From positions 31,670,001 to 31,734,000 of the forward strand of contig NC_092674.1 of NCBI RefSeq assembly GCF_964355755.1: a stretch of DNA of 64,000 nt, written 5' to 3'. Below are positions 9,789 to 59,681 of this stretch, one piece after another; position 1 is the first letter of the stretch; each line of letters starts with the position of its first letter. This DNA comes from Antedon mediterranea (taxonomy: Eukaryota > Echinodermata > Crinoidea > Comatulida > Antedonidae). The notes beneath the pieces were generated by a model. The model was not told where the DNA came from. It saw only the letters and a program-made list of their open reading frames with translations, and did no database searches. Made by a program: the position numbers and the translations under genes.

Positions 9789-22708
<12,920 letters not shown>

Positions 22709-24130: not shown

Positions 24131-27100
24131 TCATAAATCTGCAAAAAAATCATTATTTCTTGTTGTTTTTAACCGTTTTGTTTTGTCCGTTTTCTTAGCT
24201 TTCTGTTTTGTGCTGAATTCAATGTCTTCCAGATTGGAAATATTCCAGAATTTAATTTTTTGGTCGTGAGAACAGCTTGCTAATAAGTCGCCCTCATGTG
24301 ACACGTCCATTGATTCTATTGGAAACTCATCATGATCTCCGACCACTCCAAGAAAACGATTTGGTAATATGTTTACCGCCCTAAAGAGCAAACAAAATAC
24401 ATTTGGTAATATGTTTACTGCCCTAAAAAGCAAACAAAATACATTTTATACTGCATAGAAATGTCTTATTTTGACAGTGTTTCTATACATTTTAAAATAT
24501 TGTATATGCTTTTATTAGTATTATTGGGAAAAGCCACTTGACAGTGCAATTATTGAATGCTACCATAGGCACCTGTATTGGAAAAATAACAAAATAAAAA
24601 TCCGTATAAAATTGGCATTTGAACATACCTTATTGTTCCATCAACAGACCCAGTGCAAATAATATTTTCATTTATTTTTACACATGTGTCTACCGATTCT
24701 GGGTGGCCAGGAAATCTATCGCTAATATTGCCAAATTCATTCCAGTTGAATAAATTGAGAGCACCGTCTCCTGCACCACACACAACCTTTTTCCCTTTCT
24801 GAAACAAAGTATAAATTAAATAGTTATACAGTCAGGGGAAAACTTCACTTTGTAACATGAACACAGCCATTTTCCTCCTAACTGTATACTGTATAAAGTT
24901 ACACAATTTTTATTTCAGGCGAGGCTATACAAATACTAAATCGTAATTATAATAAAGACAATATACTATACTTTAATTATTGACACAGTCATCATTTCAT
25001 CTTAAATCGTAATTATAACTAGACATGAAACTCGTCACTTTGACGAGTTAGTTATCCGCACGACAGATGCCACGTGCACGAAAATACAGGACCACCTCTT
25101 ATTATAGTTTTTAACGTATTATAATTATACAGTACACTGTGTATAAAAGGAGACATTAATTCTACATGATACAGAGGGCGGCAAACAACAATTTGCTCAC
25201 ATCAGAGACTATGCTGGTGTACATTGTACTACTGTATATTATATGACATATTAACTGAATTATGGAACCTGCCTTTAATTCAAATATTTAACATGACGTC
25301 ATAAAAAAAACAACACAACGATAGCAATTTCTGAAGAAAATTATCTTAGCAACAACATATTAACGTGTAGAAGAAATTTGAATACGTAAAATGTTGGTGC
25401 GCGCACATTTAAATGTGATGAACTATTACGCAAAATATGAAAATACGACTTTTTTTATTCAACTGGCAATATGATGACGTCACAACATCCGATTGGCAAA
25501 ATGTTTACATGAATTCGTATCTACAATCCTATAGCTTCCAGAAAATGTTTTAATCGTGATTATCACATTTTATTCTTACGAGCTATTACAGATTAAAATT
25601 TACTGTAAAGATGAAATTAATGACCCACGTAATTAAAATTTTTAGGCATGATGACGTTATAAAAATTTTAATATTTTTATCTCATGCTAAAGAAAGTTGA
25701 TTGACCTAGACAATATATAAATATAGGAGAAAAAGGAATACAGATAAGCGTGATGCGCTCCATTGAATGTGATGAGCAATAACGAAACAGACAAAAATCC
25801 TATATTTTACATTCGTGTGGCCATACGATTACGTCACAATGTTTTTTTAGCCTTATTGATGCATGATCCGACATCTGCAACTCATCAACTTCTAGATTTT
25901 GTAATAAAAATAAACGGTTCACGGTTTACTTTAGAAACTATGACTGTTTAAAAAAAGACATTATTTTGATGATTTTTTAAGCTTTTTCATAAAAAACGCG
26001 CACAAATTGTCTAATTCAACGTGTTCGTATGGCGTTATTTAAACTGGAAAAGTTCTAAATTGTTTTCAAAATTACTAGGAAAGGCTTGAAAAATATAATT
26101 CAAGAGAAAAAAATATGTTTTTTCGCTATGTGCGCACCGCGTGCGTAAAAAATTGCGCGCCCGTGGGAATTTTTGACATGCTCAAAATGACATGAAACGC
26201 GTAAAAAGTTGATTAGAAATTAATTTTGCGCATTTTGAAATTTTAAATGCGCGTGTGCGCGTAACTTCTTGTGAAACATGCCATTTTTAATCCGTAGAAA
26301 GTTTGCCCCTGATATGACTTAAATTTTGTCAAAGTGTCAATACTAAATGACTTTTGGTTTTTAATCTATGATCAATCATTGAAATTCATAAAATTGCGCG
26401 TAAGTCACGTTGCGCAACTATGACGTCATTCAAAAATAGGAGGTGCACAACTTCACGTAAATGCCCATATGTTGTCAAAGTTATGAAATGTTATGTTTAC
26501 ACATTTTAGAGAAACGCGACTCACAAAAAGGAAGGAAGGAAAGAAGAACTAGACATGAAACTCGTCACTTTGACGAGTTAGTTATCCGCACGACAAACGC
26601 CACGTGCACGTCATACGTTGGAATATTGCACACAGAAAAAGATTATGGCATTATGACCTGAACTGAAGAATATCATATCTTGTTAGTGCTGAATTCTGTC
26701 TATTTTGTGTCATATAGTATATACAGTATAATCTGTATACATATTACATACAGTGTAGAATAGGTGAAATTATGGGACGCACCGTTTATTCCAATTTTTA
26801 ACATGGTGACGGTATTAAAATTAAACACTAAGATAGCAATTTCGGAAGGACATTATCTCACCAACAACATATTAACGTGTAGAAGAAATTTGAATACGTA
26901 GAATATGGATGCGTGCTCGTTTAAATGTGATGAACTATGACGCAAAATATGAAAATACGACTTATTTTATTCAACTGGCCATATGATGACTTCACAACAT
27001 CCGATTGGCAAAATGTTCACATTAATTCGTATCTACAGTCCAATAGCTTCCAGAAAACGTTTTAATCATAATTATCACTTTTTATTCTTACGAGCAATAA

Positions 27101-43804: not shown

Positions 43805-46800
43805 ATGGCTTTCGTACTTTTGGCAGTAACCATTCTTTCTAAAGCTATCCTTATTGAGAGTTGGACAGAAACTAGATATATATGTCCAATAAATACGGTT
43901 TGTTTTAAAAGACCTGTAAACTGCGAGGTGAACGACTGCGATTATTTTGTTTCTGCCAAAGAAAATCCACGTAACCCGGAACAGGTTATCATTGATTTGA
44001 GAGGTAGATCCGACGGGTGGGTTGCACTTGGATTATCTCATGATGAAGTTGGCATGGTAAGTTCATTATTAATCATTATATTCTTTATTTATAGTTTAAA
44101 CTGCGAAATATAGGCCATGATTTATATGCAATAATTAAAAAGATGATGATGTAATTGGTAAAAAAAAATATTACCTTGACATAATTGAACGTATCGCTTA
44201 CATTAAGTAAAGTGCGTCTGATTTTGATTCACTTTCGTATTGAATTGACAGAATTAAGTTCTAATCGAATGGGGAACATGGCCTCAGTGCAATTACCGGT
44301 GATGATTTAGTCACTACCGCTGACCCGTTTAACTCAAATCAGAATATCTATACATATATAGCCGAAATGAATGCTCTAAAAAAGCCTTGTAAACTAACGG
44401 TCGTATAGGAATGTTCCCACAATTTACATTTACAACGATTTATAAAAAATATTAATTATTAATAGGTTTGTAGTGCATATAATTGCTGTTTCATTAAAAA
44501 AAGGTAACGTGATAAATCTAAAGTTAGGCTTCACGTTCGTGAATTGAATTGTTAAAATCATTTCAGCAAGAAGATGACGTTATGATGTGCATTCGCAGAG
44601 GAGATTATGTCACACTTGAGCGGCGATGGAATACAGGTGGTCTGAACCACATGTCCTCATCTCAGGTATTCATAACAGTACAACTTTTAAAACTTAAACT
44701 AAAGGCTTGATAATAATTGGTTGCATCACTGGTATATATTTTTTTTCAATAAAAACTTTAAAAATTCATAAAACCCTTGAGAAATGTTTTAAAATTATTT
44801 CGTGCCTAGCCTTTCTGGTATATTTACGATAAACCTACTAACATATTACTTAATATTTACTTGTAGGCTGGTGTGAACTCGTGGAACAACGCGTACAGTT
44901 ACACAAATGGAATTCTACGATGTCAATTTATCAGAGAAAAACAACTTCCTCAAGATCCTCTACACTTTTTTGAAATGGATTCCAATTGTCATTGGCTCGT
45001 AAATGCTATGGGTTTGACATCAGCTACAGGTATTTATTATTTGTATAACAATCAGCGTAAAACAAGTAAACTGAATCTTAACATAAAACACATCCCTTAA
45101 TCATGTCGGAGTTTCAAAGTGTTTATTTGAGTGGATTTAATAAGAATACAATTCAATTATTTTATTCCGTCAAGCACTCTGGCTCGAAAATTGTTTTGCT
45201 TGTTACGTATATAAAACATTACAACTATTATAAAATGGTTAACATACAAACAGCAAGGGGTAAAATACAAACAGCACGACACCAAGGGGTAAAATACAAA
45301 CAGTACGCGTCACCAAGGGGTAAAATACAAACAGTACGACACCAAGGGGTAAAATACAAACAGTACGACACCAAGGGGTAAAATACAAACAGTACGGTAC
45401 CAAGGGGTAAAATACAAACAGCACGACACCAAGGGGTAAAATACAAACAGTACGGTACCAAGGGGTAAAATACAAACAGCACGACACCAAGGGGTTAAAT
45501 ACAAACAGCACGACACCAAGGGGTAAAATACAAACAGTACGACACCAAGGGGTAAAATACAAACAGCACGACACCAAGGGATAAAATACAAACAGTACGA
45601 CACCAAGGGGTAAAATACAAACAGCACGACACCAAGGGGTAAAATACAAACAGTACGACACCAAGGGGTAAAATACAAACAGCACGACACCAAGGGGTAA
45701 AATACAAACAGTACGACACCAAGGGGTAAAATACAAACAGCACGACACCAAGGGGTAAAATACAAACAGTACGACACCAAGGGGTAAAATACAAACAGCA
45801 CGACACCAAGGGGTAAAATACCAACAGTACAACACCAAGGGGTAAAATACAAACAGCACGACACCAAGGGGTAAAAGACAAACAGCACGACACCAAGGGG
45901 TAAAATACAAACAGCACGACACCAAGGGGTAAAATACAAACAGTACGACACCAAGGGGTAAAATACAAACAGTACGACACCAAGGGGTAAAATACAAACA
46001 GTACGACACCAAGGGGTAAAATACAAACAGTACGACACCAAGGGGTAAACTACAAACAGCACGACACCAAGGGGTAAAATACAAACAGAACGACACCAAG
46101 GGGTAAAATACAAACAACACGACACCAAGGGGTAAAATACAAAAGCAACAAATGCAAATATGAAATAATAAATAGGTTAAAACATGGCAGTAGTAAAAAA
46201 TATCATAAAATTGTGGAAAACAGTGTCATATAAAATTGGATAAAAGTAAGTTCACCTGACAACATTGTCATTAAAAAGCCTCATAGCAGATGGGAGTAAA
46301 TAATTTCGTAATCTATTAATTTTCATCATAGAAAAGCGAATTCCACCACTTCTGTTAAGTACAACATGTTTGTTGAGTGGATTGGCTTTCCATTTTTAAC
46401 TTCCATGTTTTTGGTAAAATCTTTTGTGGCAATTTCTTCTAATGCATTAACATTGATACCAATTATTTTAGTAGCTGCTTTAATAATTTTCTCTAATTAT
46501 GAAGTGGCATATAGAATGGAAAATAAAATAACACAGTTTTTCTTTTCCCAACAAGCATATCTTTAGTTTCTACCATGTTATGTAATGATTGATGTTTTTT
46601 TTTTTATCTTAGGAAAACCACTTAAACATACAAAGCGGCCATGTATATCTTCACAGCAAATTAGTGTAACCGATCAAACGCCAGTTCCGGCATGTACACC
46701 ACCGAGAGATTGGAATCCAAATCGTGGACGTAGGCCAGGAGGAGGAGGTGGAAGAAACACCGGAGGTGGAAGAAACACTGGGGTAGGATTTGGTGGTGGT

Positions 46801-49049: not shown

Positions 49050-52000
49050 ATGAATCTTAAATTGGTAGTCATTGGCCTTTTGGTATGTGCCGCTTTAATT
49101 GAAGCTTCAGGAAGCAGCAGTGGTAAGAGGAAGCATGGTGGTGGGGGAAGTAACAGTGGTAGTAGCGGTAGCGGCAGTAGTGGTAGCGGCAGTAGCAGTA
49201 GTAGTAGTAGCAGCGGCAGTAAGAGCAGATGTGGTAGCGATAGTAGTAGTAGTAGTAGTAGTAGTAGTTCAGGACAAGATGGGTGTGACTCCAACTCATG
49301 TCTAGCTCTTGGAAAATGGGTGAGAATTATTTTATTTTAAGCACTCACAGTTACAGCCAGGAATGTTGAATTATAGCAAACCGACTTATTTTGGAAGTTT
49401 TTTGTATTAGCCTATTGCTCTTACTCTAATTTCATTTAATTCCTAATAATTTCTTTTCAATAACAAATACAAAAAATCTTCTATAATAACATCAAATATG
49501 AAAAACGGTACCTCACTGTAAGTAAAGCTTTAATTGTGGAGTCCAAGCAAAAGTAATTATAAGAAAGGTATACGAAGAACATAACACAAAATAAAATGCA
49601 CGAGGTCAGATGGATGTAGCAGAAGCAGTTCATTGTTGTAAAATACTTTAATCACAATTGTTGGATTACCATAACAGCAAAACAATATTGCTCATATTAA
49701 TGTTACGATCGACTAATAGTCGTCCCTTATCTTATAGTGCAAATCAGACCGATCATGCTGTAGTGGACTTTGTCGTAGTAACAAATGCAAGAGTAGGTGT
49801 GGCGGAAATAATGCAGTTGTAAGTAGAATTGATACACCATGATAGGCTACTTTCACAATCTTAGATTTATAAACGCTATTCGTGCCGCCACTGATTTATA
49901 ATCCGTTAAAAACCTAAGCTTAAACTAACATTTAGAATTCAATCAATTGTTTGATAAAAGTAGATAGAAATTCGTTTATCCCATGGTAAGTTCAAACCAA
50001 ATTTTAAAAATAAAAGGGAGGAAATAGGGATGTTGAATCCGGATCTGCCACTGTATAGATATCAAGTCTTCAATAGTTCTTTTGAGGAATTGTTCTTATA
50101 ATACTCTTCTTAATAATACTATTTTAAACATCAACAGTGTACAAAGGACACTGACTGCTGTAGCAGAGATTGTAGGAATGGAAGGTGTTTTGTGTGCAGG
50201 CAGCCATGGCAGTCGGTAAATATAGAATTATTGTATAACTCAATAAAGAAATTACAGGTATGTGTATGTATATTATTAACATAACATTTTCTCTGTGGTC
50301 TTTAGTGCCGATTTGACAGTGAATGCTGTGATGGAAACTGTAAAGACAACAAGTGTGTTCTTTGTAAAGAAGTTGGAAAATCCGTAAGTTACTATAGTTA
50401 GTGACAAAGACACATCCAAGTAAATGTGCATGAATTCAAAGTGTATATCTCGTTCACTATTTTCTGCTATGAAATATTCAAAAATAATTCAGAAATTGTC
50501 TTTCATCTTACAAACTGATTCTGATCTATTTTAAGTGTAACTCAAACAGCGATTGTTGTAACAATGACTGCAGAAATCGAAGATGTTTTGAATGTAAACC
50601 AGAATTTGCCTGGGTAAGTTTATTTCAAATGTTCACCAACAGTACAAAATATTTTGTTATAATTAAAAATAATTATAATGTTTTATTGCACAATCTGTAT
50701 AAGTTAGTTGTAACGATTTATAGAAAGATTGTTCGTGTTCATTTAAACTTAAGTTAGTTAGTGATGAGCTACTCGGTATGTCAGATTTTTTGGGAGTAGT
50801 CGTATAATGATATACTGATCTAAAATAATATAAATTAAAAATAAATAATTATCTGTACAGTGCAAATCGGACAGTCAATGTTGTAATGGACAATGTAAAG
50901 ACAACAAATGTTTCACATGCAAGCAATCAGGTGACTCTGTAAGTACTTCTAACTGCCGTTGTTCACATAATTATCGTCCAAAAACCTAGCCTATACAATT
51001 TACATTAATTTTCATTATAGAAGTTGTCACGGTATAAAATACTTTGATGTTACATATGGACTTAATTTTTAATATGTCGTTAAAAAAAATAGTAAACAAT
51101 ATAATTCCCCTGTAACTCCTTTGGTTTTGTATCTTGGCATGGTATGGAATAACATTTGATTATTATTCTTTAAACAAACGTTTTGCCGTTTTTGATATAA
51201 TTATATCTTTATACTCTCCATATTCAGCAAATTTATTCAAAGATCCATGTATAACCGAAGCATGTCAATATAATATATAATAAGCCTGTAATTAACTAAC
51301 TAGTTGTGTTTTATTAGTGTACTTCAAGCTCTGACTGTTGTGAAGGAAACTGCAACAATATAATAAGCCTGTAATTAACTAACTAGTTGTGTTTTATTAG
51401 TGTACTTCAAGCTCTGACTGTTGTGAAGGAAACTGCAACAATATAATAAGCCTGTAATTAACTAACTAGTTGTGTTTTATTAGTGTACTTAAAGCTCTGA
51501 CTGTTGTGAAGGAAACTGCAACAATATAATAAGCCTGTAATTAACTAACTAGTTGTGTTTTATTAGTGTACTTCAAGCTCTGACTGTTGTGAAGGAAACT
51601 GCAACAATATAATAAGCCTGTAATTAACTAACTAGTTGTGTTTTATTAGTGTACTTCAAGCTCTGACTGTTGTGAAGGAAACTGCAACAATATAATAAGC
51701 CTGTAATTAACTAACTAGTTGTGTTTTATTAGTGTACTTAAAGCTCTGACTGTTGTGAAGGAAACTGCAACAATATAATAAGCCTGTAATTAACTAACTA
51801 GTTGTGTTTTATTAGTGTACTTCAAGCTCTGACTGTTGTGAAGGAAACTGCAACAATATAATAAGCCTGTAATTAACTAACTAGTTGTGTTTTATTAGTG
51901 TACTTCAAGCTCTGACTGTTGTGAAGGAAACTGCAACAATATAATAAGCCTGTAATTAACTAACTAGTTGTGTTTTATTAGTGTACTTAAAGCTCTGACT

Positions 52001-55000
52001 GTTGTGAAGTAAACTGCAACAATATAATAAGCCTGTAATTAACTATCTAGTTGTGTTTTATTAGTGTACTTCAAGCTCTGACTGTTGTGAAGGAAACTGC
52101 AACAATATAATAAGCCTGTAATTAACTAACTAGTTGTGTTTTATTAGTGTACTTCAAGCTCTGACTGTTGTGAAGGAAACTGCAACAATATAATAAGCCT
52201 GTAATTAACTAACTAGTTGTGTTTTATTAGTGTACTTAAAGCTCTTACTGTTGTGAAGGAAACTGCAACAATATAATAAGCCTGTAATTAACTAACTAGT
52301 TGTGTTTTATTAGTGTACTTCAAGCTCTGACTGTTGTGAAGGAAACTGCAACAATATAATAAGCCTGTAATTAACTAACTAGTTGTGTTTTATTAGTGTA
52401 CTTAAAGCTCTGACTGTTGTGAAGGAAACTGCAACAATATAATAAGCCTGTAATTAACTAACTAGTTGTGTTTTATTAGTGTACTTAAAGCTCTGACTGT
52501 TGTGAAGTAAACTGCAACAATATAATAAGCCTGTAATTAACTATCTAGTTGTGTTTTATTAGTGTACTTCAAGCTCTGACTGTTGTGAAGGAAACTGCAA
52601 CAATATAATAAGCCTGTAATTAACTAACTAGTTGTGTTTTATTAGTGTACTTCAAGCTCTGACTGTTGTGAAGGAAACTGCAACAATATAATAAGCCTGT
52701 AATTAACTAACTAGTTGTGTTTTATTAGTGTACTTAAAGCTCTGACTGTTGTGAAGGAAACTGCAACAATATAATAAGCCTGTAATTAACTATCTAGTTG
52801 TGTTTTATTAGTGTACTTCAAGCTCTGACTGTTGTGAAGGAAACTGCAACAATATAATAAGCCTGTAATTAACTAACTAGTTGTGTTTTATTAGTGTACT
52901 TCAAGCTCTGACTGTTGTGAAGGAAACTGCAACAATATAATAAGCCTGTAATTAACTAACTAGTTGTGTTTTATTAGTGTACTTAAAGCTCTTACTGTTG
53001 TGAAGGAAACTGCAACAATATAATAAGCCTGTAATTAACTAACTAGTTGTGTTTTATTAGTGTACTTCAAGCTCTGACTGTTGTGAAGGAAACTGCAACA
53101 ATATAATAAGCCTGTAATTAACTAACTAGTTGTGTTTTATTAGTGTACTTAAAGCTCTGACTGTTGTGAAGGAAACTGCAACAATATAATAAGCCTGTAA
53201 TTAACTAACTAGTTGTGTTTTATTAGTGTACTTAAAGCTCTGACTGTTGTGAAGTAAACTGCAACAATATAATAAGCCTGTAATTAACTATCTAGTTGTG
53301 TTTTATTAGTGTACTTCAAGCTCTGACTGTTGTGAAGGAAACTGCAACAATATAATAAGCCTGTAATTAACTAACTAGTTGTGTTTTATTAGTGTACTTC
53401 AAGCTCTGACTGTTGTGAAGGAAACTGCAACAATATAATAAGCCTGTAATTAACTAACTAGTTGTGTTTTATTAGTGTACTTAAAGCTCTTACTGTTGTG
53501 AAGGAAACTGCAACAATATAATAAGCCTGTAATTAACTAACTAGTTGTGTTTTATTAGTGTACTTCAAGCTCTGACTGTTGTGAAGGAAACTGCAACAAT
53601 ATAATAAGCCTGTAATTAACTAACTAGTTGTGTTTTATTAGTGTACTTAAAGCTCTGACTGTTGTGAAGGAAACTGCAACAATATAATAAGCCTGTAATT
53701 AACTAACTAGTTGTGTTTTATTAGTGTACTTCAAGCTCTGACTGTTGTGAAGGAAACTGCAACAATATAATAAGCCTGTAATTAACTAACTAGTTGTGTT
53801 TTATTAGTGTACTTCAAGCTCTGACTGTTGTGAAGGAAACTGCAACAATATAATAAGCCTGTAATTAACTAACTAGTTGTGTTTTATTAGTGTACTTAAA
53901 GCTCTGACTGTTGTGAAGGAAACTGCAACAATATAATAAGCCTGTAATTAACTAACTAGTTGTGTTTTATTAGTGTACTTCAAGCTCTGACTGTTGTGAA
54001 GGAAACTGCAACAATATAATAAGCCTGTAATTAACTAACTAGTTGTGTTTTATTAGTGTACTTAAAGCTCTGACTGTTGTGAAGGAAACTGCAACAATAT
54101 AATAAGCCTGTAATTAACTAACTAGTTGTGTTTTATTAGTGTACTTCAAGCTCTGACTGTTGTGAAGGAAACTGCAACAACCGTAAATGTACAACCTGTA
54201 AACCAGACGGATATCGTGTAAGTATAATTAATATTCATAGATTTATTTTAAATTAATTTTCAACAAGCTTTAGAAAATTGTTTTTATTTTCTCGTTTTTG
54301 TTTATCCTAGTGCTATCGGCCTGATGACTGTTGTTCAAAGCAATGCAAAGACATCGGATACGGCTACCCACAATGCCTCACGTGTAAAGGCTTTGGTTCT
54401 CAGGTAGGCAACGGACACTACTACAACTGTTAGACTTCTTCACACTATAGACATGGAGCACAACTTAATTAAACTATAATAATAATAATATGGATTATAC
54501 TCATTCTACACGGGAAAATAAAGTCACGGAAGAACGAAATGTCTTGCAATGTTTTTGTTTATTGGTTGCGGTTCATCAATAATTTAGATAAAAACACACA
54601 TACTGCCTACAATATTCAATTCACATGGTGAAGGTTAGACGGAACTACTGTATAAAGTGGGAATACAAAATGCACGTACTCGTATATAACATAAAGCACG
54701 CATTATTATTTGAGAGTAAATTTGGTGATGTCAAAGTTATTTTCACATTGTGTTATAGTCATGGCACAATGCCCCTTACCAATAATCTTACTGTCACACA
54801 TCAGTATTCATAATGCCACCCTCCTCGTCGATAATTTCACTATTTTATCTTCCATAATGTAACCAAACACAATATATTCTAAACGTTAAATGGTGATGAT
54901 TATGGTGGTGGGGGTATTGGTGGTGATAACTGGTAACGGTTGTGGCTATTGTAATAGAAATTTGTAAAATATTACTTTTTGGAAACGGGATATATATATT

Positions 55001-58000
55001 TTCTTTCTTAGAACTGTATGATTAAATAAATTATAAATACACAGCACAGACGAAAACTTTACCTTTCCTTTGTCTCACCTTTCCTTTGTCTAAGTATCGT
55101 AACTGAGCAAATTTATTATTATCCGATTATTATTATTATTATTATGATCATAATTGTTGCTGTTGTCATGTCATTGTTGTTACAATTTAATAATTCAATG
55201 TAACCGCGCGTTCCACTAAGGATGATGAGGTAATATTATTGCTATAGGTCATGGTAAAAAGAAACTACACATGCAAATTATCTTTAAAGAGATGTTATTG
55301 ACACTATATAGTCGAGATATTGAGAAGGAACGGTCTGGGACACGTATATAAATTCGACAAGGTGCATGTCCCGCGATGAACAGAATTGTATAGACAAAGT
55401 GACTCACATTTGTATTGTTTGCTTCTCTACGGTTTAGTTAGAATACTTTATTATTACGAGAGGAGGTGGGAAAAGAATGTGTTTATTGTGAAACCGATTT
55501 GGTTATTTTCTGAATCAATGTTTTGTATGACAGTGCAAGTGGGACCAGCAGTGTTGTTCAGAGCGATGTCGGCAACTCGGAACCGATGAAGAGAAAACGT
55601 GTGTAACATGTAAAGACATAGAGGAAGAGGTAGGGGAATTTCGATCAACATGTTTTAATCTTAAATAAATAAGATAATTACAATAAAGTAAATCATAATT
55701 TGTGGCATCGCCTTAAAAGATCATTCCGGCGCGTTTGTATCATTCAGAAACCGTTTATAAAAACCACGAACGCGTTTTCTTACAGTGTAATACAGCGGCT
55801 GACTGTTGTGAACAGAGTTGCATCAATAACAAATGTTCGTCTTGTTTTGATACTGATAAACAGGTAACTATACTTTAACAATCGTTATAATGTAAAAAAA
55901 AAACCAGGAATAGTATCAGAAAATGTTGCATTTTAGATTCACTGTGGACAAATCTAGTTATAGGCCTAATACTATACGACATTGGTCAAAATGATTGTGT
56001 ATTATGGTGCTTATGAACTAACTATATAACTTAAATAATATGTTATATAGTGTACTGCAGACTCTCAATGTTGTTCTGGAAGATGTCGTGTACTTGGTCA
56101 AAATGACTTGAGACAGTGTGTGATTTGCAAGGATCTGAACGAGAAGGTAGGTTGCTTTATCACTACAGGGAGCAGCGGTTTCGTTGACATACAATGATTC
56201 CTCTTAAATACTTGGAAAGTTGTACCAGAAACAAATATTAGGCCAAGAGTTGCAAAAGAAGGTTTATTTAAAAGAATAAGTCTACTCCAACCGACCTTTA
56301 TGTTTATTATGATCCCAGCATGCAAAGTTAGAATAATATCCTGTATTTATAAAGCAATTGGTAAGATTTAACATTATGTTTAATGACGTGCACACCTAGT
56401 ACTTTGACAATTTTGTTCATATTTTTTAAATAATTACACTTATATATTTTTTATTAATCAATGTAGTGTAATAAAGATCAAGATTGTTGTTATGGACAAT
56501 GCCTTGGTGGAAAATGTAACGTATGTAAAGAGGATGGTGTTCAAGTAAGTATACTGTGATTAAGATTGTTCCAAGAAACGCTTTATAGGCAATTATAGAA
56601 ATTCCAAAACTATCAACATGCACTATACTCTGAAATTGTGTTTTTAGTGCAAAGAAGACGTGGACTGCTGTTCTAATCAGTGTCGCTACAGCCCAGCAGT
56701 AGGGCATGGACTCTGCGTCAACTGTAACGATAGATTTGATTCAGTAAGTCACCGTTTTTATTCTTGTTTCTAGGACGGTTAATTACTAGTTACAGTTTTT
56801 ATGAATACTAACAAAATGTGTAGTTAGGTCAGAAAAACTTTTTAAAAACCAAAAATTAAATTTATAATTCTATTCAGTGTGAACAAACATCTGACTGTTG
56901 CCCTGGCAACGAGTGTATCAGTGGATTCTGCTTAAAACCAGTGAAACCGTGTGCCGGACAACTTGAAAGGGTAAAATATATAGGCCTACATACTATAATT
57001 ATGTTTTGTTTAGGATATCTACAATATTGTGTTACTTATAGCCGCATCTCCTCTAGCAGCTTGTAAAGCGGCTCCATTGATCCATTTATTCATCATTTTG
57101 ACATTTTTGTTTAACGATTTGCAGTGCCAGACAGACAAGGATTGCTGTGTTGGACAGTGCTCTAGTAATCAATGCAGATCTTGCAGAGGTGATCTCAATC
57201 TTGTAAGCATTGGTTTTAATACAATTATAGAAAAACCAAAACACCAATTAGCAACTATATGCATTACTTCTACTCCCCAAAACAAGCAAACAAGTGCGGG
57301 TACCTAAACTAACTTGTTTGAGGTTGAGTTAATGTATTGAGTTTTTGTTAACTTTGCTTCTAAATTTGTTTTTTTTTCAGTGCACTGACAACTCGGATTG
57401 CTGTTCTGGGAAATGTCAGGATGTTGGATCCGGATTTAAAACGTGTAATTCTTGTTTGGAAAAGGCTGAACAGGTAGGTTCGTTACTTGAACACAATACG
57501 TATAACTTATAGGCTGTTTTATTACATTGTTTTAATACAGTAAACCAGTTCATGATTCCTGTCTGCACTTATCATCAAATAATTATAATAGCTGTGACTC
57601 TTGCTTTTGTCCTATTAATAATTAGGATTAACAGACTAATTATAATCTCCTATAGTGCTCTGAGGATTCTGAATGCTGTTCAAATGAGTGCCGTAATGTT
57701 AAAGGCAAATTACAATGTGTTATTTGCTCATTGCCGAGCGATTTGGTAAGCGCTAATGTTACGCGGGCTATACCAGATCTACTAACACGGGTTTTGCACG
57801 GATTGCTGTTGTGACTGATATTTGTCATTTGTTGTTTCTATTGGTTTCTAGCTGCATGGCCGGTTTAGTGCTGCCTTTTCCTTTGTACAACTGTTGATAT
57901 AAAGTTTCACTATACTATATCGAAACATATTGATCGAAACGTCGAGAAACTCAATATCGTTCTTTTCAGATATTTTACGTGGTGTACCACAAACTTTATA

Positions 58001-59681
58001 TCAACATATTGATTTCGCCAAACATATACTATACAGTTACTCTACTATACAATTCTGCAGGAATAGGCCTACAGAACACCGTACTCATAGCAGCCACATT
58101 GATGGATTAACTCCCAAAGAATATTGTTCTACAATGTCATAGATTTAGAGGCAATTTAGAGGTTCAACTCCTTAAATCGCATGCTCTTGCTTAGTTATGT
58201 TTTGGCTTTTTACACGCTAGAATAGTACGGACGGTGCATTAATAGGCCTATAGTTAGAATAGTACGGATGTTGCATTAATAGGCCTATGCTTTTTACACG
58301 CTAGAATAGTACGGACGGTGCGCAATAATAATAGTTAATGTAATTTGCGCTAGAATAGTACGGACGGTGCAATAATATAGTTAATGTAATTTGCGCTAGA
58401 ATATTACGGACGGTGCAATAATATAGTTAATGTAATTTGCGCTAGAATATTACGGACGGTGCAATAATATTATAGTTAATGTAATTTGCGCTAGAATAGT
58501 ACGGACGGTGCAATAATATAGTTAATGTAATTTGCGCTAGAATATTACGGACGGTGCAATAATATAGTTAATGTAATTAGCGCTAGAATATTACGGACGG
58601 TGCAATAATATAGTTAATGTAATTAGCGCTAGAATAGTACGGACGGTGCAATAATATAGTTAATGTAATTTGCGCTAGAATATTACGGACGGTGCAATAA
58701 TATAGTTAATGTAATTAGCGCTAGAATAGTAGGCCTACGGACGGTGCAATAATATAGTTAATGTAATTTGCGCTAGAATAGTACGGACGGTGCAATAATA
58801 TAGTTAATGTAATTAGCGCTAGAATAGTACGGACGGTGCAATAATATAGTTAATGTAATTTGCGCTAGAATAGTACGGACGGTGCAATAATATAGTTAAT
58901 GTAATTTGCGCTAGAATATTACGGACGGTGCAATAATATAGTTAATGTAATTGGCGCTAGAATAGTACGGACAGTGCAATAATATAGTTAATGTAATTTG
59001 CGCTAGAATAGTACGGACGGTGCAATAATATAGTTAATGTAATTTGCGCTAGAATAGTACGGACGGTGCAATAATATAGTTAATGTAATTTGCGCTATGA
59101 TTACACGCTAGAATAGGACGGTGCAATAATATAGTTAATGTAATTAGCGCTAGAATATTACGGACGGTGCAATAATATAGTTAATGTAGCCTAATTTGCG
59201 CTAGAATATTACGGACGTTGCAATAATATAGTTAATGTAATTTGCGCTAGAATAGTACGGACGGTGCAATAATATAGTTAATGTAATTAGTGCTAGAATA
59301 GTACAGACGGTGCAATAATATAGTTAATGTAATTTGCGCTATGATTATTAATAATATGATTATTTCAGTGTACTCAAGCGAGTGACTGTTGCACGGATAT
59401 ATGTCGACCATGGTTTGTTGGAGGTGATAACCGATGTGGTTGTAATTCTGTAGGCGAAGGGGTGAGTAGGCCTAATAATAATATTGTTGTTTTACCTTTA
59501 ATCCGTATTATTGACTTCATTTATATATGGAGGTAATTCACACTCGCACACTTTTTTTTCTCAGTGCAAAACTGATAACAACTGCTGTTCCGGAATATGT
59601 AATCAAACATACAACCAATGCCAAGCGGTCGGTAGCTACTTTGCTGTGATTCAACCAAAACCTACTGATGCGGGATACTAA
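49050..59681 (+). CDS. Secreted modular cysteine-rich (knottin-like) repeat protein
   Basis: Exons: 49050-49316, 49738-49818, 50138-50215, 50306-50383, 50536-50613, 50861-50938, 54140-54217, 54311-54403, 55534-55629, 55786-55863, 56051-56146, 56467-56544, 56648-56743, 56878-56970, 57125-57202, 57381-57473, 57656-57745, 59369-59461, 59565-59681; 612 aa. Exon 1 gives a signal peptide (LKLVVIGLLVCAALIEA) and a Gly/Ser-rich stretch. Each of the 18 later exons is phase 0-0, starts with a Cys codon and encodes one module of 26 or 30-32 aa: C-x5-CC-x3-C-x4..10-C-x2-C in most (example CTSSSDCCEGNC then CTTC). The CC spacing resembles disulfide knots, but I cannot name a family or function; extracellular structural, binding or defence roles are all possible. 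Exon 7 sits at the end of a 35-copy acceptor array. Confidence 0.88.
51276..54181 (+). repeat. 83-bp tandem array: 35 copies of the exon 7 acceptor
   Basis: Acceptors (ttttattag) recur from 51318 to 54140 at exactly 83 bp: 34 intervals make 2822 bp with no indel. Each unit has about 40 bp of intron, the acceptor and the first about 41 nt of exon 7 (CTSSSDCCEGNCNN). Only the last unit continues into the module end and donor; in the other 34 the frame runs on to IISL and TAA. Variants (cttc/ctta, ctctgac/ctcttac, gaagg/gaagt, aactaac/aactatc) recur in a 6-unit order (498 bp), so blocks of units were amplified as well as single units. Confidence 0.97.
58200..59345. repeat. 46-bp minisatellite, about 24 copies
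   Basis: Unit contains gctagaatagtacggacggt and aatatagttaatgtaatttg, in the intron before exon 18 of the cysteine-rich gene. The array ends about 25 bp before the acceptor at 59368. Individual units carry small insertions at TA: GGCCTA at 58732-58737 and GCCTA at about 59189-59193. Confidence 0.95.

Follow-up and report, generated by a model that had tools for sequence, protein, structure and literature searches.

An array of 35 intron–exon junctions in a predicted cysteine-rich protein gene of the crinoid Antedon mediterranea, most likely a neutral mirage

Introduction

Upstream of the single donor of exon 7 in a predicted cysteine-rich protein gene of Antedon mediterranea lie 35 near-identical splice acceptors, of which only the last is continuous with the remainder of the exon. 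This arrangement raises the question of how the real acceptor might be selected, and of whether the 34 surplus copies serve the gene or are merely tolerated by it.

Tandem repeats that cross exon–intron boundaries have been described in the globin genes of amphioxus, under the name 'mirages' that had been given earlier from Adh3 (PMC3087553). In the part of that report available, mirages involve either a 5′ or a 3′ end, have units of about 10–160 bp and carry AG or GT signals in many of their copies; the BflGb6 mirage has six and three units in two haplotypes, and the Adh3 data, together with RT-PCR on amphioxus globins, suggest no interference with regular splicing (PMC3087553). Amphioxus PGBD5 was subsequently added as a mirage, with TnC also cited (PMC3902484, likewise from the portion available). 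The tandem duplication of a segment that bears a splice site has additionally been proposed, in the available portions of three reports, as a model of intron gain (PMC3087553; PMC2812944; PMC4974935).

The host gene and the anatomy of the array

The host gene was mapped by scanning for a cysteine pattern and for phase-0 exons. Its relevant features, in coordinates of the window (the whole 64-kb stretch of DNA that was analysed), are:

49050–59681, forward strand: predicted cysteine-rich protein gene, 19 coding exons
50939–54139, forward strand: intron 6, 3201 nt (379 nt minus the 34 extra copies)
51275–54179, forward strand: 83-bp array, 35 units, each with a branch-point-like TAACTAAC and a T-rich tract (by eye)
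51275–54096, forward strand: 34 decoy acceptor units, 20 leading to CTSSSDCCEGNCNNIISL and a stop, 14 to CT and a stop
54097–54179, forward strand: unit 35, of consensus type A, the sole copy continuous with the remainder of exon 7
54140–54217, forward strand: exon 7 (78 nt), in phase 0 at each end, module CTSSSDCCEGNCNNRKCTTCKPDGYR, donor GTAAGT

All introns of the gene are phase 0. Exon 1 is serine-rich, with a start that by eye resembles a signal peptide, and each of exons 2–19 harbours one cysteine module (exon 3, 50138–50215). When the 18 modules are aligned, five cysteines are invariant and a sixth is nearly so, and the exon 7 module has all six. The gene is a sequence-based prediction, since two limited protein searches gave no near-identical protein; the first was probably swamped by serine-rich words and the second, which covered proteins of about 337–1073 aa only, yielded 70 distant proteins with a best identity of 43%. 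The Pfam model Dickkopf_N (PF04706) matches two stretches of the product (34.9 bits, cut-off 25), with no further Dickkopf model listed, and cysteine spacing alone may account for this match in a protein of 18 short modules. The small-toxin families in the Pfam listing all fall under their own cut-offs, and short knottin structures were not used as relatives, their E values of 0.01 or worse resting on cysteine spacing. Two further minisatellites lie in or near the gene: a 46-bp repeat of 22 copies at 58299–59341, which makes up 1043 of the 1623 nt of intron 17 and stops 27 nt before the start of exon 18, leaving that junction outside the array, and a 29-bp repeat of 31 copies at 45250–46147, approximately 3 kb upstream of the gene, which has several open frames (more than one) on the minus strand.

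The exon 7 array is composed of 35 head-to-tail units of 83 bp, with no indels and 98% matches (Tandem Repeats Finder: 51275–54180, period 83, 35.0 copies), and is far beyond what chance would produce. One unit comprises 43 nt of intron end, including the AG, and the first 40 nt of exon 7. Once the units were cut in phase, the 34 near-identical decoys that the initial annotation had placed at 83-bp spacing before the real acceptor were borne out, as was its view that a junction and not a module had been amplified; the exon map confirmed its exon 6 donor at 50939, together with exon 7 and the donor of that exon. Its figure of about 41 nt of exon per decoy was correct in essence, the match measuring 40 nt plus one shared A. 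The array is present in the source assembly, on a 31.9-Mb contig in which the window lies at 31.67 Mb, and among the matches listed for a 166-bp array query against the genome, the best candidates having been scored, all 13 lie inside it.

Growth of the array

Four substitutions, C51A, G72T, G59T and A25T, are the variable sites of the array and define five unit types, which occur in the order AABAABAACDAEABCDABDAEABCDAEABAABABA. The consensus type A accounts for 17 of the 35 units, and the remaining 18 (B 8, C 3, D 4, E 3) carry one or two of the substitutions. As the array amounts to 35 whole copies plus 1 nt, the founding event was presumably a short tandem duplication that needed hardly any sequence match, sharing about 1 nt at its ends, and that would have taken in 43 nt of intron together with 40 nt of exon. 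The order of the unit types contains recurrent blocks, DAEABCDA beginning at units 10 and 19, nine units apart, and CDAEAB at units 9 and 24; a repeat as long as DAEABCDA arose in 60 of 5000 shuffles of the unit order. Units nine apart match in 14 of 26 comparisons (7.6 expected, P 0.002) and units 15 apart in 11 of 20 (5.9 expected, P 0.008), both P values being uncorrected for the 19 lags tested. These blocks point to multi-unit copying, and the expansion to 35 copies may have proceeded by slippage or unequal exchange of blocks of one to many units. The spread of few mutations across many units suggests recent growth or steady homogenisation.

Coding consequences and strength of the decoy acceptors

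Read in the frame set by the exon 6 donor, every one of the 34 decoys reaches a stop. The initial annotation had each of them leading to a TAA after four extra residues, which holds for the 20 that encode CTSSSDCCEGNCNNIISL; in the other 14, C51A places the TAA at the third codon, directly after CT. It had also let the decoy products end after module 6 plus half a module, a count that requires correction, as the exons give five whole modules (exons 2–6). The possibility that the array is coding was rejected, 83 not being divisible by three and each decoy running into a stop. Three of the four variable sites fall in the exon part of the unit, one of them being the stop of the 14 shorter decoys, and the decoys therefore appear to be without coding constraint.

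The splice signal has been retained in the copies, the 35 array units scoring 2.01 or 2.79 as acceptors and the real exon 7 site 2.01. Of the 180 AGs examined in intron 6, among them the terminal one, 38 equal or surpass the exon 7 acceptor in score, namely the 35 array units and three AGs (51021, 51228 and 51243) that precede the array and outscore that acceptor. A simple score consequently does not explain a choice of the real acceptor, because the decoys equal or slightly exceed it and three further AGs are stronger. For reference, the 43 donors of the two mapped genes range from 3.24 to 12.61, with a median of 7.77. The exon 7 donor ranks 30 from the weakest of these, and the best donor-like sites inside the units, 4.11 (35 copies) and 3.48 (3 copies), exceed only four and two of them, respectively, so that small internal exons within the array are unlikely. 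The last units and exon 7 (53848–54230) were also folded, and no signal of RNA structure was found in this region (z +2.33, 100 of 100 shuffles folding at least as well); as the region folds more weakly than all of the shuffles, no structural (docking) device is indicated.

Other junction arrays in the window

The exon 7 array is one of four junction arrays, in three genes, within the same 64-kb window. The other three are:

14980–15337, forward strand: CYFIP acceptor array, five 72-bp units of acceptor and exon start; the exon that agrees with the deposited protein starts at 15291, in the last copy
21248–22220, forward strand: CYFIP donor array, seventeen 57-bp units (16 forward, 1 inverted) of exon end and donor; the first donor, with the exon end at 21285, agrees with the deposited protein
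24359–24446, reverse strand: WDR55-like acceptor array, two 42-bp units of acceptor and exon start (RAVNILPN)

The four junction units match nothing else in the window, all 59 of their matches falling within their own arrays. The CYFIP gene could be spliced, by backtracking, to the deposited A. mediterranea protein P0001 over 1255 of 1255 residues in 26 exons, with one solution found, and this solution takes the last acceptor and the first donor, which are the copies beside the unique part of each exon. Use of any of the 15 forward donors after the first would introduce a stop at residue 1151. The deposited protein is a database gene model and, as such, offers the best evidence here that junction arrays may be passed over in splicing. 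The full agreement with P0001 assigns the window to A. mediterranea. A solved relative is CYFIP1 (3p8c). The inverted unit of the donor array lies inside it, at about 21875–21928. Elsewhere in the gene, two tandem 182-nt exons (12343–12524 and 12894–13075), approximately 67% identical in protein, look like mutually exclusive exons, and P0001 uses the second. Use of the upstream WDR55-like acceptor would insert 14 residues in frame; this gene owes its name to a match of 82.5 bits on a 100-aa piece, under the whole-protein cut-off of 200. The window also contains a partial ionotropic glutamate receptor-like gene at 1804–2232 (Lig_chan 56 bits, cut-off 30.8).

Arrays of period at least 30 in the CYFIP and cysteine-rich genes include a junction in three of seven cases, with 1.75 expected (P 0.24). 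For the expectation, the genes were collapsed and a single unit of each length was positioned in them at random, P being that of three or more, and the comparison has little power; two of the seven arrays, at 58218 and 58299, are neighbours and may form a single array, and the WDR55-like gene, whose exons are partly known, was left out and would add one array and one match. Amplification specific to junctions was accordingly not supported, with the qualification that the arrays are few. In 200 kb sampled from the genome (20 hand-chosen 10-kb stretches from ten contigs), 21 arrays of period at least 30 were found, four of them with at least 35 copies (114, 107.7, 52.4 and 35.0, the first two both of 88-bp period). 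Two of the 20 stretches, L020 (137–10000) and L028 (636–9998), consist almost entirely of a tandem repeat with an 88-bp period. The window, with 13 arrays in 64 kb, is about twice as array-dense as the sampled stretches. The exon 7 array resembles the ordinary minisatellites of this genome in unit length and copy number, and differs from them in that it includes a splice junction. Given capture near the chance rate and the long arrays of the sampled stretches, no special cause need be invoked for the inclusion of the junction or for the copy number.

How the real acceptor could be selected

The array is probably a neutral minisatellite, a mirage, that chanced to span the boundary of intron 6 and exon 7, with the last acceptor mostly used. 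The remainder of exon 7, with its donor, is present as a single copy that borders the array downstream, and the additional copies would thereby have become intron. The spliceosome would be expected to pair this single donor with the nearest acceptor across the 78-nt exon, and for this reason the last copy would mostly be used. Any transcript that joined a decoy would stop at once and be either degraded, presumably by nonsense-mediated decay, or short, and skipping of exon 7 would remove one module in frame.

Human data on competing splice sites bear on this reading in both directions. Among competing 3′ sites of similar strength, according to the available portion of PMC9225289, the class in which a long intron precedes the exon and a short one follows it mimics exon definition, which favours the site closest to the donor of the exon. 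Exon 7, with 3201 nt of intron upstream and 93 nt downstream (intron 7), would by analogy fit this class, and growth of the array would itself then shift the choice towards the right acceptor. In the same material the upstream site is preferred overall at alternative 3′ sites, and the downstream site in all four intron classes at 5′ sites (PMC9225289), preferences that would favour the decoys and count against a neutral array. The introns of the two mapped genes are, moreover, mostly short (median 178 nt, n=43), and the first acceptor may therefore be favoured, through intron definition. Some leakage into the decoys, visible as stop-bearing transcripts, is likely.

A functional switch at the array is possible, and would take the form of a splice rheostat in which the 34 decoys compete with the real acceptor, their use leads to a stop and the copy number sets the output of full-length protein. 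The decoys are suited to this role in that their sequence and score equal or slightly exceed those of the real site, all of them end in stops, upstream 3′ sites are preferred overall in the human data and the exon 7 acceptor is comparatively weak, its rank among 43, counted from the weakest, lying between 2 and 11 according to model width. Such a rheostat is nevertheless quite unlikely, as a like arrangement recurs in unrelated genes of the window, the CYFIP model ignores its arrays, junctions are not significantly enriched among arrays and the region of the last units lacks a structural signal. An elaboration of it, in which copy number varies among individuals, the stop-bearing acceptors set the full-length share and the decoys act as a gene-conversion store of stops for exon 7, must be considered highly doubtful. 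A general tie between arrays and weak acceptors was also considered, on the strength of ranks 3 and 4 among 43 when counted from the weakest, but was rejected; these ranks shift with model width, and the link fails for the WDR55-like acceptors and the CYFIP donor. The initial annotation had offered a kinetic splice switch or recent junk held in check by splicing, and it is the latter that is favoured by the three further junction arrays, the bypass in the CYFIP model, the lack of significant enrichment and the abundance of long arrays in the samples, the switch having gained nothing beyond the equality of the site sequences.

Two other explanations concern the skipping of exon 7 and an error of assembly. 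Exon 6 could join exon 8 in frame, the loss of one module being harmless and the array consequently free to decay and grow, and exon 7, at 78 nt with phase 0 at each end and as one of 18 similar modules, would suit such skipping. Were the exon unused, nothing would prevent its decay, yet unit 35 and the remainder of exon 7 are intact, with all six cysteines and a donor of rank 30 from the weakest, making this unlikely. That the array is an assembly artefact, with a true copy number much smaller or larger, appears very improbable. An amphioxus draft assembly appeared to be wrong at one mirage (PMC3087553, in the portion available), and the CYFIP protein is listed with a contig of 31,901,198 bases, against 31,897,500 here, such that another assembly version may differ somewhere. 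Against this, the five unit types occur in blockwise order, the array is only 2.9 kb long, other long arrays are present in the sampled stretches, and an assembly of 354 Mb in 18 contigs suggests that long reads were used.

Relationship to mirages and implications

The neutral reading places the exon 7 array within a class that the initial annotation, although right that a junction had been amplified, did not mention as already described in amphioxus. The array has several of the features by which mirages are recognised: its unit spans the boundary, it comprises several head-to-tail, minisatellite-like copies and the splice signal is kept. Like the amphioxus mirages of Adh3, BflGb6, BflGb9, TnC and PGBD5, it consists of tandem copies of an intron–exon boundary. 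It differs in host, A. mediterranea being a crinoid echinoderm and not a lancelet, and in size, with 35 near-identical copies in the one haplotype represented here against the six and three of BflGb6. The resemblance to intron gain by duplication lies in the tandem copying of a segment with a splice signal; in contrast to that model, the array needs no new intron, and the donor-like sites of its units are weak. No report of an echinoderm mirage was recognised in the literature searched, which consisted of titles and the beginnings of abstracts, with most subscription papers outside its scope, and the available portions of PMC12783039 and PMC2206037 gave no further usable junction arrays. The array thus represents a large instance of a kind already known, most likely a neutral one, from a phylum for which the literature searched yielded no earlier report.

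The phenomenon of mirages is hereby extended from lancelets to a crinoid, and the findings suggest that a minisatellite-rich, intron-dense genome may yield them as a by-product. The 35 near-identical acceptors before one donor constitute a natural test of how the spliceosome chooses by position alone, and the sixteen forward donors that follow one acceptor in the nearby CYFIP gene provide a matching natural test for equal sites.
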